Below, piece after piece: positions 43,051-50,388 of a DNA stretch of 64,000 nucleotides. The stretch is from NCBI RefSeq assembly GCF_019443965.1, contig NZ_CP040814.1:1798001-1862000 (forward strand), given 5' to 3'. The position numbers and the translations under genes were made by a program. How positions within the stretch are numbered: position 1 is the stretch's first letter; the number at the start of each line of letters is the position of its first letter. Under the pieces are notes generated by a model. It made no database searches, was not told the DNA's origin, and saw only the letters and a list, made by a program, of their open reading frames with translations. The stretch is from Salinibacterium sp. M195. Lineage in GTDB: Bacteria; Actinomycetota; Actinomycetes; Actinomycetales; Microbacteriaceae.

Positions 43051-43151
43051 GCATTCCCGCGGTCTTGTGGAGCCTCATCGCTGCGCCTCGGTGCAGTCCC
43101 TACGCTGCCATGTGGCTCCTCCCCGATAGAGTAACTAATGAGTCTTGTTCA

Positions 43152-43169
43152 GTTGGCATTCTTGCCAAC
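43152..43169 (+). promoter_or_regulatory. Palindrome upstream of the lipoprotein gene
   Basis: GTTGGCA-TTCT-TGCCAAC is a perfect 7+4+7 inverted repeat 32 bases ahead of the ATG at 43201. It could be an operator or a small leader hairpin; no regulator gene is adjacent. Confidence 0.4.
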
Positions 43170-43200
43170 GCTATCGAGCAATTGCGGAGGGGAAAGTTCG

Positions 43201-43926
43201 ATGAAGAGTGCGAAGTTCCGCAGCAGTGCTGTGCACATCGCCATGACGGCAATACTCGTCATGATTCTGTCGAGTTGTTCCATAGTGCACGACGCAATAA
43301 CCACGACTGGTGCAGAGGATGCTGCTGGGCTTACGCAAGCTGAAGTCGGCAAACTCTCCGTGAAGGAGCAGTTTGAGTTGGTTGAACAGCGCACCGAGCA
43401 CCTACAAGAGCTGTTGACGGAAACCCAAGAACAGGTCAGTACTGATCAGTGGACCTGGGTTGTCAAAGGCGCGATCCCTAAAAGCGGAAATGGCGCTCCA
43501 GGTTCTGTCTCGGGATCGACGCGAGAGAACAGCTATTACCTAGAGGCGGTTCGGGCCGTCTATCAGGAAGGCGCCTCCGGAGCGCAAGAAGATATCGAGC
43601 CGATGCTGTCCTATTTCGAGTCCAAGGGCTGGGAGGCTTCGGTTGGCGAGCACACCGAAGGTCATGCGTACCTAGTACGCGCAGAGACCGGAGACGGTTA
43701 TCGGCTGAACTATCGAGTTCAGCCCGATGGGTCCTACAGTGTTTCGGTCATCAGCGAAATGTTCTGGGGTGATTACACGGCGCTACTCGCGGCGGTAGCC
43801 GACCGCATTCCTGACGAAGCCGCTGATGTAGACGAGTCTTTGCCGGGGGTATATATTCCATTTCCTCAATGGGATGATCCGATCCACGCTCCGGACCTAC
43901 TGAATCCATACTCCGGAGACGAATAG
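43201..43926 (+). CDS. Predicted lipoprotein of unknown function
   Basis: A 241-residue protein with a signal peptide (AVHIAMTAILVMI) and a lipobox LSSC, lipidated cysteine near residue 26, so it should be anchored outside the membrane. A helical, Glu/Gln-rich segment (LVEQRTEHLQELLTETQEQV) follows, then a domain containing YFESKGWEASVGEHTEG and DGYRLNYRVQPDGSYSVSVI. I do not recognise a family. The start at 43201 is chosen for its GGAGGGGAAAG ribosome site and because the signal peptide begins there; the frame is open to 43138. Confidence 0.75.
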   Translation: MKSAKFRSSAVHIAMTAILVMILSSCSIVHDAITTTGAEDAAGLTQAEVGKLSVKEQFELVEQRTEHLQELLTETQEQVSTDQWTWVVKGAIPKSGNGAPGSVSGSTRENSYYLEAVRAVYQEGASGAQEDIEPMLSYFESKGWEASVGEHTEGHAYLVRAETGDGYRLNYRVQPDGSYSVSVISEMFWGDYTALLAAVADRIPDEAADVDESLPGVYIPFPQWDDPIHAPDLLNPYSGDE

Positions 43927-44097: not shown

Positions 44098-47000
44098 ATG
44101 GCATTCCACGACGACGTTGACGACGCGAACGATGCGAACGACAAAACGTCCTCAGAGCATGAGTTCGAACTACCCGTTCCCCGGCGCGCAGCGTCGAGTA
44201 TCCCTGCCGTCGATGAGACGGATCGCGACGAAAAGCCGACCCCTGTCGACTTGAGCGAAGCCTCAAACGATGGCGTCTTCGATTTGGATGTTGCGCTCGA
44301 GGTTCCGGCGAGTCTCGACGACACACCCGTTCCTGAGGTGCCGCTAACCCCACCGGGTGCTTCCGACTTCGCACCCATCAACTTGGATGAAGAGTTCCAG
44401 CGTTCAGAACTTGCTGAAGGTCTAGACCAGGGAATGCCACCCTGGGCGATGGCGCCCGCACCCGACCCCACACAAGCTGTATCCCAACTTGACGCGCCCG
44501 ACGAATTTTCAGGCCCGCGCCGTTCGACTTTCAGCCACGTCGCGGCAGAAGATAGCCTCACAGATTCGGACAGTTCAGGCACCCCTGCGAGCCCCGCGGG
44601 TCCTCAGAGTCCCGTGGATTCTGACAGTCCCGTGGATTCTGACACCGCCGCCGTTTCCGAGACTGAGCTCAATCCAGCAGTCTCGGGTGTTTCCGCAGGA
44701 GACTTTGCGCCCAACGCCGTAGCAGTGCCTAGCGACGACCCCTATCAAATTCCGGCTGATTACACGACGCCGGATTTCTTTGCACAACGTATTTCACGTC
44801 GCCGTGCCACGGACGAGGTCGCGAGCGCGACGTCAACTGAGATTCCCGAAGACGACTCGGACGCTGCGGAAAACCTAGCCGCTTCCGATCAAGATCATTT
44901 CGCGGAACTCGAAGAGGCGCCGAATGAGGAAAGTCTCGAGAACTCAGAAGGCAGCGCGAGTGCGGAAAGCAGCGCTGACGACGACGACCTCACGAGTGTT
45001 GGCGGGTCAGCTAACGCACCCGACTCCACCAGCCCCGATGGCCCGACCGAGATCCAAGATTCCAAGGTATTCGATTTCGATTCCTTGTTTTCGACGGATG
45101 CCCCAGCGACGCCTCCGGCACCTTCTACGACAGCCGATTCATCAGATGACACGTCGTGGGCACCGATGGCTGCGCCAGCCGACTCGCAGAGTACTGCCGT
45201 GGCCGACCCGGCGCCGGAAACGAATAACGTCTGGAAGCTCGGGCCACTCGAGCCCAACACCGACAGCGCAGCGCCATCAGCAGCTTCGGATGTGGCCGCA
45301 TCGGCCGTCGACGCTCCGGCGTCAGCTGATGTGGACGCGTCCTCGGCGAGTGAAGTAGCGCAGCCAGCGAACGAAGATGCGGAAGTCGCTCACGATGCTT
45401 CGCCCGTCAACGCTTTCGAGACGCCTCACGAATCCGAGAATGTCGCGGCGAACGCGGCGGAGGATTCAGTTGTGTCCGACGAGGTGCCCCTCAACGCTGA
45501 ATTTGTCATTGAGGGCGCGCCCATGTGGAACCTCGACTCGGCATCCAGCGTCGAGGAAGCGAACGAGGACTCCGCTCGCGACGTCACGAACGAAGATGTC
45601 GTTCACGACGCTGCTGACGTCGATGACTCGGATGACCTAGCGGCAGCTGAAGCCGTTCAAGGGACTGCTGAACCGGCTCAAGATAGTACTGAAGTTGCTC
45701 AGGGCAGTGCTGAAATTGCTCAGGACAGTTCTGAGACAGATCGTGTTCACGACGTTGATGTTATTCAGGACGAACCCGATCCTGAAGGCCCGATCGATTC
45801 AGTTGACGTCGATGTTGCGCATGCCGCTGCCGATGGTGAAGTGCTTCGCGATCAGCCAGACATCGCCCCTGCGCACGACGATGTGACTCACGATGTTGAG
45901 GTTGTCGACGTTGTCGATGCACCTCAGGATGGCGCCGAGGATCGTACCGAGGGTGATCTCGACGCTTTCGACGGTGCGGATCCGGTAGATGCGACCGATG
46001 GGGCAGCGCCAGCAGGAGTTGAGCCTCTTCTCGCGTCGCCGCTGGAGTTCCCCGCTGAGGCCTTTTCGGCGGCAGCGGCGGAGTTCGCGCCGACGCAAGA
46101 AGACGCCCCTAGTTTCGAAAGCCAGACGCCCGAAACGGAACAACCAGTCCAGGGTCAACCGGGATCGTCTTCGCCTAACGAACCAATTGAGCCTGCTGTC
46201 GAGCACAGCTCGTTCGAGCCGCCTCGCACGTCAGAATCGATAGTCGAGTTGGACGATGCGGACGATGCGGACGATGCGGACGATGTGGATGACTCTGACG
46301 GGTCGGACGAAGCAACACCGCCGGTCCGGCGCTCAATGGCAGATGACGAACTGCTCAACTGGGCAGACAGCCCCGAGAGTCAATCAACTGGCACGCTCAG
46401 TGTTATCGAGGTACTTGAAGCCCAGCTCCGGCTGCGCGAAGAGGAAGCTCGCGAGTATCGCGAATGGGAAACCACTCTTCGATCCAAAGCAAGCCAGACG
46501 ACCGAGGTATCAAACGAGCCAATCGTTTCTGCTGACGAAGGAATTGCGGCGAACAGCGATGTCGCTGCCGCGCCCTCGAATCTTTCCACTCCCGCAGAGG
46601 ACTCCCAGACCGAAGCGAAAGCCGAAACAGAAGCGGCGGCGGCTCAATTGCCCGCGTGGGATGTTCCACCACCGAGTGACTCCTGGGCTCCGGGCGTCGA
46701 TTTCGACGACGAGATTCCTTTCGCGGCGCACGCAGATCCCACCGGGTCGATAACGCTCCCGGTATTCGACGCACAACCGGCCATCGATGACTCGGCGACT
46801 GAAGGCGACGCTTCAGCGGCAACTACCGCAGAAGCTGAACCCGAAATATCAAAGTTCGGCGCCTCCGTGCCAGAAGAGACTGCCATTCCAGCGGATGTGA
46901 CCTCAGATGAGGCCGGCTCCGAGGCTATCGCTGAAGTCGACTTTGGCTTCGCCCCTGCTTCCGAAGTGCCGAATCAGATTGACTCTGACCCCGAGTCCGA

Positions 47001-49560
47001 GTCCGAGTCCGAGACTGAGTCCGAAGTTGCGGTCGCGCCCGAGCAGATCGTGCCGCACTTTGATGAGGAATCCGGGCTTCTGAGCTTGGGTAATGTGCCC
47101 GTCACCTCCACATTTGCTCCGCCGACTCTTGATCCCGCTGATGCCGCGGCGCACGCTGAGCAATCGCCAGAGTTTCCCGCAGACGAGGACGGTGACTACG
47201 ACGAAATTCCACTCGCACCGCCACCCCTTGTCGAGCCATTGACGGCGCCGTCGAACCCTCGCTCAAACCTCGACGAGCATGTGTCGTTCGGAGATTTCGG
47301 CTTCACGCCCCCGATCTCTGGTGAACCGGCAGCAGCCGAAGCGCCGATCGCTGAAACCTCCGCCGCAGCATCCGAGGTTGATTCCGACAACGTAAACGCG
47401 TTTGCCTTCAACCTCGATTCTCCTGCTGCAGCGGTAGCACCCAGCAGCACTCACGTCTCCGCTGACGACGCAGAACCTGCCGCTGACGACGCAGATTCAC
47501 AACCTGAGGGCGTCGATGTTCCGGCCGAACCTACGGATATCGAAGCTGCAAACGTTGAGATTGCCGGGGCTCCTTCCTCTTTCAGCTTTGCCTCAGAAGA
47601 AACCCCGCGCTATGTGCCATCCGCGCCTCTGAGCTTTGACGACCTTTTGAAGAGCGATAGTGAGGATGACGAAGAAGCCGACGATGCGGACGACGCTGAC
47701 GACGTCAACCCGCTCGACGCGTTTCTTGCGGAGCCCGATACAGAATCGCTGCCAGGAGACCCGCTCTCGACCGTAAACACGGGGTCGATTTCGATAAGCG
47801 AAACCCTGCTGGAAGCTGAGTCTGATGAGGCAGTAGACGACAGCGATCGTTTCTCTCACTCGGACGAGGTTCCCGCACATCGTGCCGACGACGACAGCAA
47901 CCCGATTCCTTTCGCGGCGGGCGCCGCGACGGTAGCTGCGGGGGTCGCCGCGACAGCCGTGAGCCCTTCAGCAGCACCGAGCACTGCTGACGCTGCGGCA
48001 TCGGGCACCGATCCTGCGGTAGTTCCTCAGCCACTGTCGCTCTCGTCGGCGCTCGTCAGCCAGCAACCTCTTGGCCTGGATGACGTCGCACCAACCGCCC
48101 AACGAGTTTTCAGCCTCGAAGAGAGCGGGCTTGAGCCCACCCCGGTTGATCGCCGAGTTGGTCACGCCGCGCGTATGTTCTGGCTGTGGTTTGCAACAAA
48201 CTCTTCCATCGTGAGCCTCGGCCTAGGTGCCGCTGTGTTCGCTGTCGGGATGAGCCTTCGCCAGTCGGTAGTCGCGATTTTGGCCGGCGTGGCGCTGTCG
48301 TTCATCCCTTTGGGGCTCACCACTCTTGCAGGCAAGCGCAGCGGTCAGCCGACAATGGTCATTTCGCGATCAACCTTCGGATTGCTCGGTAACGTTGTTC
48401 CTGCCGTTGTTGCGCTAGTTGCCCGACTCTTCTGGGGCGCAGTTCTGCTGTGGCTCTTAGCGTCATCTGTAGCGATCGTCCTGATCGGGGCAGATCTCAA
48501 CGTTGGACTCGGTGACCGTCAACTGTTGCTTATCGCGCTTGCGGTGTCCTTCCTCGTGGCGCTCGTCGTCGCATTTGCCGGCTACCCGTTGTTCGCTCGC
48601 ATCCAACTCATTTTGAGCATCGTCTCCGGCGTGCTCGTCGTGGGCCTCATTGCTCTCACCGCTCAATACGTTGACGTTGCTCAGGCACTTACCACTCCAG
48701 ATGGGTCGTGGCTGCTCACTCTCACTGGTACGGTCCTCGTGTTCAGTTTCTTGGGCCTTGTGTGGGCTTACAGCGGAGCAGATATCGCGCGCTACCAACG
48801 ACCGTCGTCTAGTGGTGCAGCATCTGCGCTATCGGCAGCGTTTGGCGCTACCGTTCCCGCGTTCGTGCTCATCGCCTACGGTGCACTCCTTGCGGCATCC
48901 GACCCGGCAATCGCACGGGGATTCCTTGCATCGCCGCTCGACACACTGTTGCCACTTTTGCCGGGCTGGTTCCCCATCCCGCTCTTGCTCGCGGCTGCGT
49001 TGAGTCTTCTCTCTGGCATTACATTGAGTCTGTACTCCGGTGGATTCGCCCTCCAAGCTATCGGTGTTCGACTTCCCAGACAGTGGTCAATTGTGATCGT
49101 GGGAGTGCTGTTGGGCGCGCTGGCTGTACTCTTTGCGTTCGGCGTCACTGGCGGTATCAACGAGTTGTTCCGTGATGTTGCGACAACGATCGCGGTGCCG
49201 ACTGCGGCTTGGGCAGGGATCTTTGCTGCTGAGACCATGATTCGCACGCGTCGCCTCGACAGCGCCGCCCTCACCACACGAGGGGGAATATATGCGGATG
49301 TTCGCTGGGTCAACTTGGGTGCGTTTGTGTTGATCTCAGTAATCGGATTCGCTCTCACTAGCGCGACAATCACCTGGCTTTCTTGGCAGGGTTACGGCTT
49401 TGCGGCACTGGGTGTTGACCTCAATTCTGAGCTAGCTGCAACAGACCTCGGCGTACTTGTCGCCTTGGGCCTTGGATTACTGACTCCGATGGTTGCCGGC
49501 ATTCCGGCTATTCGTCGCCAAGAGTCTGGCCTTTCCGAACGCGCAAACCGCGCTGTCTAG
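44098..49560 (+). CDS. Giant acidic low-complexity region fused to an NCS1-type permease
   Basis: An 1820-residue protein. Residues 1 to about 1340 are an Ala/Asp/Glu/Ser/Pro/Thr-rich, strongly acidic stretch without hydrophobic helices, containing runs such as DDADDADDADDVDDSDGSD and a short charged helix (EAQLRLREEEAREYREWE, about 775). Residues about 1340-1820 begin ESGLEPTPVDRRVGHAARMF, then WLWFATNSSIVSLGLGAAVF, and form about 12 membrane helices of the nucleobase:cation symporter-1 (cytosine/purine permease) family. Normal members are 400-550 residues. Codon use and frame stay open throughout, and membrane topology puts the extension in the cytoplasm. Substrate unknown. Confidence 0.85.
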   Translation: MAFHDDVDDANDANDKTSSEHEFELPVPRRAASSIPAVDETDRDEKPTPVDLSEASNDGVFDLDVALEVPASLDDTPVPEVPLTPPGASDFAPINLDEEFQRSELAEGLDQGMPPWAMAPAPDPTQAVSQLDAPDEFSGPRRSTFSHVAAEDSLTDSDSSGTPASPAGPQSPVDSDSPVDSDTAAVSETELNPAVSGVSAGDFAPNAVAVPSDDPYQIPADYTTPDFFAQRISRRRATDEVASATSTEIPEDDSDAAENLAASDQDHFAELEEAPNEESLENSEGSASAESSADDDDLTSVGGSANAPDSTSPDGPTEIQDSKVFDFDSLFSTDAPATPPAPSTTADSSDDTSWAPMAAPADSQSTAVADPAPETNNVWKLGPLEPNTDSAAPSAASDVAASAVDAPASADVDASSASEVAQPANEDAEVAHDASPVNAFETPHESENVAANAAEDSVVSDEVPLNAEFVIEGAPMWNLDSASSVEEANEDSARDVTNEDVVHDAADVDDSDDLAAAEAVQGTAEPAQDSTEVAQGSAEIAQDSSETDRVHDVDVIQDEPDPEGPIDSVDVDVAHAAADGEVLRDQPDIAPAHDDVTHDVEVVDVVDAPQDGAEDRTEGDLDAFDGADPVDATDGAAPAGVEPLLASPLEFPAEAFSAAAAEFAPTQEDAPSFESQTPETEQPVQGQPGSSSPNEPIEPAVEHSSFEPPRTSESIVELDDADDADDADDVDDSDGSDEATPPVRRSMADDELLNWADSPESQSTGTLSVIEVLEAQLRLREEEAREYREWETTLRSKASQTTEVSNEPIVSADEGIAANSDVAAAPSNLSTPAEDSQTEAKAETEAAAAQLPAWDVPPPSDSWAPGVDFDDEIPFAAHADPTGSITLPVFDAQPAIDDSATEGDASAATTAEAEPEISKFGASVPEETAIPADVTSDEAGSEAIAEVDFGFAPASEVPNQIDSDPESESESETESEVAVAPEQIVPHFDEESGLLSLGNVPVTSTFAPPTLDPADAAAHAEQSPEFPADEDGDYDEIPLAPPPLVEPLTAPSNPRSNLDEHVSFGDFGFTPPISGEPAAAEAPIAETSAAASEVDSDNVNAFAFNLDSPAAAVAPSSTHVSADDAEPAADDADSQPEGVDVPAEPTDIEAANVEIAGAPSSFSFASEETPRYVPSAPLSFDDLLKSDSEDDEEADDADDADDVNPLDAFLAEPDTESLPGDPLSTVNTGSISISETLLEAESDEAVDDSDRFSHSDEVPAHRADDDSNPIPFAAGAATVAAGVAATAVSPSAAPSTADAAASGTDPAVVPQPLSLSSALVSQQPLGLDDVAPTAQRVFSLEESGLEPTPVDRRVGHAARMFWLWFATNSSIVSLGLGAAVFAVGMSLRQSVVAILAGVALSFIPLGLTTLAGKRSGQPTMVISRSTFGLLGNVVPAVVALVARLFWGAVLLWLLASSVAIVLIGADLNVGLGDRQLLLIALAVSFLVALVVAFAGYPLFARIQLILSIVSGVLVVGLIALTAQYVDVAQALTTPDGSWLLTLTGTVLVFSFLGLVWAYSGADIARYQRPSSSGAASALSAAFGATVPAFVLIAYGALLAASDPAIARGFLASPLDTLLPLLPGWFPIPLLLAAALSLLSGITLSLYSGGFALQAIGVRLPRQWSIVIVGVLLGALAVLFAFGVTGGINELFRDVATTIAVPTAAWAGIFAAETMIRTRRLDSAALTTRGGIYADVRWVNLGAFVLISVIGFALTSATITWLSWQGYGFAALGVDLNSELAATDLGVLVALGLGLLTPMVAGIPAIRRQESGLSERANRAV

Positions 49561-49569
49561 ACTGAGAAC

Positions 49570-50388
49570 GTGTCTACTACTGTTTCCGAAGTAATCGCAG
49601 CAACCGAACAACTGTGGCCGTCTACTGGCGCTGAGTCGTGGGACGCTGTTGGCCTTGTTGCTGGCGATCTCGACGCGCCCGTGACCCGTATTGTCCTTGC
49701 GGTCGATGCAGTGCTTGACACCGTCGACGAAGCGATCAGCGCTGACGCAGACATGCTGATTACACATCACCCCTTGCTGCTGCGCGGCGTCACGTCAATC
49801 GCGAGCGACCGGTATAAGGGCGCCGTTCTGACACAGCTGATTCGGGCCAAGTGCGCGCTCCTTGCTGCTCACACCAACGCGGATGTCGTCGAAACAGGAA
49901 CATCAGGGAGATTTGCGGCGAAACTGGGTCTCACAGACATCGCACCGATTGTTGCTGGTGAGAATCCTGATCGCGGCATCGGTCGCACGGGAATGCTGCC
50001 AGAGGCTATGACTCTCGGTCGGCTTGCCCGACTTCTCGGAGAAATTCTCCCGGCGACTGCCACCGGAATCCGAGTCGCTGGTGACTTTGACCAGGTAGTG
50101 CAGTCAGTGGCGTTGTGCGGGGGAGCCGGTGACGCATACTTGAATGACCCGGCGGTGCTTGCCTCTGATGTGTACATCACCAGCGACCTGCGCCATCATC
50201 CGGCGTCGGAGGCGCGAGAGAATGCGCGTCTCATGCGTGGTCCTGCACTCATCGATGTTTCTCATTGGGCAAGTGAATGGCTGTGGTTAGACGCCGCAGC
50301 GGAAGAATTGCGTGAGTTGCTGCCAGCAGTAACGATTACGGTGAGCGAGTTGCGCACCGACCCTTGGGATTTTGCGGTTGTGCAGTAA
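49570..50388 (+). CDS. Nif3-like dinuclear metal protein
   Basis: A 272-residue member of the Nif3/YbgI family, toroidal hexamers with a two-metal centre, often labelled GTP cyclohydrolase I type 2 without good proof. Metal-ligand segments are visible: ITHHPLLLRG (near 65), LAAHTNADVVETG (near 97), and DVSHWASEW (near 233). The length is that of the short form lacking the inserted PII-like domain. The start is a GTG nine bases after the permease stop, and the coiled-coil protein follows 30 bases later; Nif3 and that protein are neighbours in many actinobacteria. Confidence 0.9.
   Translation: MSTTVSEVIAATEQLWPSTGAESWDAVGLVAGDLDAPVTRIVLAVDAVLDTVDEAISADADMLITHHPLLLRGVTSIASDRYKGAVLTQLIRAKCALLAAHTNADVVETGTSGRFAAKLGLTDIAPIVAGENPDRGIGRTGMLPEAMTLGRLARLLGEILPATATGIRVAGDFDQVVQSVALCGGAGDAYLNDPAVLASDVYITSDLRHHPASEARENARLMRGPALIDVSHWASEWLWLDAAAEELRELLPAVTITVSELRTDPWDFAVVQ

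Follow-up and report, generated by a model that had tools for sequence, protein, structure and literature searches.

A long acidic tail joined to an NCS1 permease

The window analysed here is a 64,000-nucleotide (nt) stretch of the Salinibacterium sp. M195 genome (contig NZ_CP040814.1, positions 1,798,001 to 1,862,000; the genome is one 3.04-Mb contig), and the gene under study is a single ORF (open reading frame) at 44098..49560 (+), uninterrupted over 1,820 amino acids (aa), which encodes an acidic N-terminal tail followed by an NCS1 permease. The tail (residues 1–1330; 44098..48087, +) is of low complexity, with a net charge of −279, 23.5% D+E and 2.6% K+R. The permease body (48136..49437, +) has 12 transmembrane helices (TM) and the LeuT fold, with NCS1 structures as its nearest relatives, and PF02133 (Transp_cyt_pur) matches residues 1347–1758 at 99.8 bits against a gathering threshold of 23.5 (E 2.1e-28). 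This bears out the sequence-only reading, an earlier annotation that had described a large acidic extension fused in frame to a complete permease. An AlphaFold2 (AF2) model of residues 730–1820 predicts disorder in the modelled tail outside residues 740–799, the predicted local distance difference test (pLDDT) in that remainder being mostly below 50. Candidate starts for a separate permease exist in residues 1101–1400, none with an obvious Shine-Dalgarno sequence as judged by eye.

Directly downstream lie two constant neighbours, nif3 (DUF34; 49570..50388, +), which begins 9 nt past the permease stop, and a cdsZ-like coiled-coil gene (PF24481; 50419..51159, +). On the other side, between a peroxiredoxin gene and the permease, an ORF at 43138-43926 looks lipoprotein-like by eye; it has no BLAST match at 1e-8 in 40 orthologous loci and a weak, sub-cutoff match to DUF436.

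The tailed permease and its locus in Microbacteriaceae

We surveyed 149 genomes, whose family was taken as Microbacteriaceae from organism names met in the protein and named-collection searches. Permease matches at E <= 1e-20 occur in 79 of them, and 45 (own genome included) hold a permease of at least 39% identity, with no other match above 37%. Forty of these 45 orthologues were fetched, the remainder being the window itself and four on short contigs. The family survey that the sequence-only reading had proposed thus returned an N-terminal tail in 40/40, ranging from 173 to 1,516 aa, with cdsZ downstream on the same strand in 40/40 and nif3 in 38/40; in the other two (L064, L071) no nif3 was found anywhere in the genome. 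Among 220 database proteins of at least 1,001 aa, the 120 that were listed share the tail-plus-permease architecture, with tails of 518–1,590 aa; 121 database tails, which may share members with the 40 orthologues, were used for composition and motifs. As the same architecture is found in relatives and the reading frame is conserved, tail included, a pseudogene fusion or an isolated assembly artefact, the latter named beforehand as a way for the reading to fail, was ruled out.

A named collection adds at least 79 loci (of 85), for example from Salinibacterium, Rhodoglobus, Leifsonia, Cryobacterium, Glaciihabitans, Frigoribacterium and Galbitalea, along with several metagenome-assembled genomes (MAGs) whose names stop at a higher rank and one MAG titled Acidobacteria. 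Both nif3 and cdsZ follow in 74/74 named loci with room downstream, and the median permease–nif3 gap is 9 nt (78 loci). The available part of a DUF34 survey (PMC8469502) reports no NCS1 neighbour of nif3.

Outside this clade, 296 class genomes yielded, apart from our own, no permease match above 37% identity. Paralogous permeases are 31–37% identical among the loci listed, and a tree that included 18 paralogue rows (31 were available) separated these from 20 tail-bearing and 3 syntenic rows by a 100/100 branch. At five paralogue loci (L106–L110) the upstream open frames span 97–563 codons with net charges of +81, −26, +61, +14 and +6; four of the five are not acidic, the motif patterns described below are absent from all, and by eye we took them as non-coding. 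The genome of the window also encodes a second PF02133 protein of ordinary length (531-aa frame; G000:C1:579547-580761).

Recurring motifs and a helical mini-domain in the tail

A set of short motifs recurs across the 121 database tails. For the 40 orthologues, motif matrices were run with the best of 200 shuffled tails as threshold. The window protein has motifs A, C, D, E, F, G, H, I and J, all on the + strand, and lacks B and K. From the N-terminus, motif C (PPWAMAPAPDPTQAV; 44437..44481) was found in 76/121 database tails and only 2/40 orthologues; motif A, here GPRRSTFSH (44512..44538; family form RRSTYTPP), scored above all 200 shuffles in 25/40; motif F (PAWDVPPPSDSWAPG; 46651..46695) occurs in 65/121 database tails and 3/40 orthologues; motif G (PPPLVEP; 47209..47241) in 15/40; motif H (SFDDLL; 47623..47658) in 9/40; and the adjoining motifs I (TGSISISETLLEAE) and J (SDEAVDDSDRF), at 47776..47853, in 9/40 and 14/40. 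The remaining counts are 30 for B (DDDxLAxALA), 17 for D (RRSLxDDEL), 23 for the helical motif E and 8 for K. Motif order is largely constant, with exceptions including L037, L046, L055, L058 and L071. All 17 orthologues in which E was not detected keep A and/or B, possibly as a shortened form. By stricter patterns, at least one of A, B, E and H is present in 35/40 orthologues and 60/73 named tails, against shuffle means of 0.1 and 0.5. Elsewhere in the window's genome the SFDDLL coding pattern has one other site. In another orthologue, L071, the tail (residues ~246–315) has four GPRRRSSA-like copies about 20 residues apart, which looks like a multiplication of the RRS motif.

Motifs D and E together form a mini-domain of about 60 aa (PPVRRSMADDELL ... 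TGTLSVIEVLEAQLRLREEEAREYREWE; 46318..46506, +; residues 740–799), supported by AF2 and by a profile. AF2 predicts it to be helical, with pLDDT block means of 78–92, a measure that can run high for a charged helix without a stable fold. The tail had been described as having no visible fold, which does not hold for these residues, and the other recurring motifs give it further structure of a kind. A profile of the D–E block matches 51/74 named sequences, the 74 including a tail-less permease fragment (L125), and 0/740 shuffles. There was no gathering-level match for the mini-domain in Pfam (12 members scanned, best E 0.033), nothing convincing among Protein Data Bank (PDB) sequences (best E 0.25) and no copy in its own genome beyond the window ORF. 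Across the 296 class genomes, which include our own and some family members and of which at most 19 candidates were scored per genome, two matched at E 0.001: our own and one marginal match (7.6e-4), taken as chance.

This order within the tail bears on the idea that it works in bulk, by charge and volume, as an ion or crowding sensor or an entropic spacer. Most members' tails are long and acidic, with a median charge per residue of −0.16 in the 121 database tails and −0.14 in the 73 named tails, as that idea would have it. However, length varies about nine-fold (173–1,590 aa), charge per residue ranges from −0.25 to about 0 (above −0.06 in five named tails, whose start codons may be misplaced), and the order of the recurring motifs is largely fixed. 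With the motifs retained despite such variation in length and charge, we do not favour a bulk polyanion and regard it as highly improbable.

Retention of the tail module on decayed permeases

The mini-domain profile had 38 matches in the 149 family genomes, of which 15 fall in genomes where the permease search found no permease at the locus. In all 15 the gene sits directly upstream of nif3, and cdsZ is matched in 14/15. The membrane part of these genes is present to very different extents. Two (L198, L199) have 11–12 predicted TM at 27–29% identity and have lost the TM3 substrate Trp, a residue that among the syntenic loci is lost in L105 and kept in L102–L104. Five (L200–L203, L206) have 9–12 predicted TM in which the permease is hardly recognisable, L201 giving a weak profile match. 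Four (L193, L195, L196, L197) have four TM and match the permease profile over positions 324–469 only, equivalent to TM9–12, and L194 has two (TM9–10 by eye) and no significant match to the permease profile. L207 has one TM; L204 and L205 have no clear TM, ending instead in a segment rich in tryptophan and arginine.

Used as query in a protein search, the L195 form brought up 22 relatives. Seven carry an organism name, in each case Frondihabitans, and where a protein name is given it is 'hypothetical protein'. Every one of the 22 carries the mini-domain at E <= 2e-16. Nineteen match the permease profile at positions 324–470 only (weakest 3e-4). The three that do not are one two-TM form and two four-TM forms with a WQG[YW] stretch. 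In CodB the substrate and Na+ sites sit in TM1, TM3, TM6 and TM8, according to the available text of PMC9379551. Because these helices are absent, the TM9–12-type Frondihabitans forms would very unlikely be NCS1 transporters. In a nif3 tree the TM9–12 and two-TM forms make one group (99 SH-aLRT, the Shimodaira–Hasegawa-like approximate likelihood ratio test). This tree, of 82 kept rows, with permease and no-tail rows cut by about half and L236 and L252 counted as tail-like by eye, is too weak to count anchor losses: the one-TM and TM-less forms need seven changes as drawn and one as forced by starred branches. Across the locus, then, the tail module is the persistent part and the anchor the variable part.

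The permease body and selection along the gene

The permease of the window is a divergent NCS1 member lying outside the TIGR00800 subfamily model, whose NCBIfam cut-off it misses (66.8 bits against 353.1). A PDB search with the single permease sequence gave no match, and a profile search reached Mhp1 at 1e-5. The substrate-stacking Trp of TM3 and the Asp and Arg of TM6 are each kept in 26/26 rows of the tail-clade alignment. At the position of CodB Gln105 the clade has Arg in 25/26 (Lys in one; Arg1443 of the window protein, in TM3, alignment position 113), and four residues on, Gly/Ala in 25/26. The resulting positive pocket suggests an anionic substrate. The CodB Na2 residues Thr278 and Thr279 are not conserved in the alignment, with Ser in 24/26 at the former and Gly/Ala in 25/26 at the latter; since the window permease has Ser and Gly there, its Na+ coupling appears doubtful.

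Ratios of nonsynonymous to synonymous substitution (dN/dS, NG86) against the nearest fetched relative (L033) are 0.16 for the tail, 0.04 for its motifs, 0.20 for the spacers and 0.03 for the permease, rough values given that dS is saturated (1.7–3.0); against L034, dS of the tail and motifs was not computable. The stronger constraint on the permease argues for a real transport role in the window genus, and because of this constraint and the kept Trp, Asp and Arg, the window permease probably still transports. The same figures bear on whether neutral low-complexity growth explains most of the tail, with the permease the only part that matters. The spacers do have the highest dN/dS, and there are seven short tandem-repeat rows in the window ORF and an ADTA run in that of L039. 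Spacer dN/dS is nonetheless still about 0.2 and that of the motifs about 0.04 (under the same saturation of dS), and the mini-domain is retained on genes without the transport core. We therefore hold this explanation to be improbable for the tail as a whole; it is likely true of spacer length only. The repeat run, a simple-repeat expansion with which the L039 ORF opens, might show spacer growth if it is translated.

A conserved permease would also suit a tail that regulates its own transporter in cis, through gating, specificity or turnover, by way of a LID next to TM1. In the portion of PMC6597760 available, the NCS1 N-tail LID motif is given as N-X-D/S-phi-X-P, about 10 aa before TM1, and the N-tail of FurE is stated to control gating and specificity. 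The tail here runs straight into the LID position, where ESGLEPTP (48121..48144, +; assigned by eye) stands directly before TM1; compared by eye with the consensus, ESGLEP has the phi-X-P and lacks the Asn. Against this, the mini-domain is kept where TM1–8 are absent, and TM-less genes at the locus also show motifs (below); regulation in cis therefore cannot account for the entire function. As the main explanation of the tail we consider it unlikely, though less so than neutral growth.

Tail-like genes at the nif3 locus

Persistence of the tail beside a variable anchor favours a docking or adaptor role over transport regulation alone or bulk charge. The survey also covered the nif3 locus itself. 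nif3 is present in 143/149 family genomes, and the locus was examined in 140/149, leaving out four permease-positive genomes (G020, G040, G050, G113) and G010, G014, G089, G145 and G096. Eighty loci have neither a permease nor a mini-domain match. Just before nif3, seven of these (L211, L244, L247, L254, L258, L266, L273) carry a tail-like ORF without TM, with at least two motifs in five and H alone in L254 and L273; the H form sits near the C-terminus. Among the real upstream ORFs scanned, all five with at least two motifs end within 40 nt of nif3. The motif criterion picked 0/827 shuffled ORFs, which is no independent test, as the patterns were written after the real ORFs had been viewed. 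Two further genes (L236, L252) are tail-like by eye, with TLGAIDELEQLL or similar and a C-terminal WPFGRR.

By these loose motif calls, tail-like genes occupy the nif3 locus in 73/149 genomes. A recognisable permease is present in 51 (45 at 39% identity or more, four of them among the loci left out; four syntenic at 31–35%; two at 27–29%), and the rest comprise five hardly recognisable multi-TM forms, five with four or two TM, three with one or no clear TM and nine TM-less. At six loci without a tail gene (L210, L212, L215, L216, L219, L246) the slot upstream of nif3 holds an ORF of 305–413 aa with six to nine predicted TM.

A probable membrane-tethered adaptor

The explanation we consider probable is that the tail is a modular docking or adaptor region, anchored in the membrane by the permease, the gene product being a membrane-tethered adaptor. 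The tail, placed on the cytosolic side by a positive-inside count, would be disordered and display the docking motifs RRS-x-Y/F-x-PP, RRS-x-x-DDEL and S/T-FDEL together with the helical mini-domain, all carried on long, variable acidic spacers. These elements would bind one or more putative cytosolic partners and keep them at the membrane, with the NCS1 permease as anchor. In the window strain, the N-tail and LID could link partner binding to substrate flux; in sister lineages transport would have degenerated with parts of the tail retained, the direction of change presumably being loss of the transporter. What endures of the gene's function may thus be the tail rather than transport. Of the roles proposed from sequence alone, that of scaffold or anchor gains from the ordered motifs, the mini-domain and the tail kept where the transporter is degraded or lost, and that of ion or crowding sensor loses from the variation in length and charge.

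More tentatively, and somewhat short of an even chance, the gene may encode a Microbacteriaceae-specific adaptor whose tail and new mini-domain recruit a cytosolic machine, perhaps the nif3–cdsZ products, to the membrane, its anchor being a transporter in the course of being lost: 12 TM would have given way in some lineages to four, two or one, to a basic aromatic end, or to nothing.

Several observations weigh against tethered docking. Selection in the window genus is stronger on the permease than on the tail. Motif E is undetected in 17/40 permease-bearing orthologues, and its cut-off is lenient (a negative score), so some of its matches are weak; by the stricter patterns, none of A, B, E and H is present in 5/40 orthologues and 13/73 named tails. 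High pLDDT in a charged helix, as noted, need not mean a fold. The mini-domain scores of L204–L207 are weak (E 2e-4 to 6e-3 in the genome search, 1.6e-5 to 1.7e-4 at the loci), and the kinship of weakly scoring genes with one or no TM is presumptive. What the small TM-less forms share is limited to motifs B and H, or to H, and no membrane anchor is clear in them; tethering is thus not universal, and the B/H-only genes may be distant kin, convergent or no kin at all. Because 71/80 further loci have no tail-like gene upstream of nif3 (L236 and L252 counted as tail-like), the tail gene is dispensable in many genera.

Comparison with known systems

Literature searches on NCS1 extensions and tails, actinobacterial transporter motifs, acidic scaffolds and Frondihabitans or Salinibacterium found no description of this family, as judged mainly from search listings, in agreement with the sequence-only reading, which knew of no described example. 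According to PMC6597760, the termini of prokaryotic transporters tend to be shorter than those in eukaryotes and are practically absent in some families; a bacterial NCS1 clade with recurring motifs on tails as long as 1,590 aa contrasts with this. Retention of the mini-domain after loss of the transport core is a natural experiment that separates tail function from transport; it suggests a bacterial route from transporter to membrane adaptor, and the 60-residue mini-domain offers a bait for finding partners.

The nearest NCS1 relatives are CodB (7QOA) and Mhp1 (2JLN). E. coli CodB has 419 aa against 1,820 here, and differs from the tail clade at Gln105 (Arg) and at Na2 Thr278/279 (Ser and Gly/Ala). 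Ordinary actinobacterial NCS1 paralogues share the PF02133-type sequence and a similar body length, but lie at other loci, have upstream frames without the motif patterns at the five loci read and mostly keep a different TM3 pocket, with Ser/Thr in 25/30 and Glu in 29/30 where the tail clade has Arg and Gly/Ala. The fungal NCS1 transporter FurE is alike in having a functional cytosolic N-tail with a LID (PMC6597760, in part). Its N-tail is 38 aa long, against 173–1,590 aa here, where relatives keep the mini-domain without the transport core. Yeast Ssy1, of the SPS sensor, has a large N-terminal extension. It is described, in what is available of PMC12958826, as a transporter-derived receptor with cytosolic partners, which here are putative. 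Ssy1 differs in being eukaryotic, in belonging to another transporter family and in serving as an amino-acid receptor, whereas the present family also includes relatives with a truncated transporter body or none.
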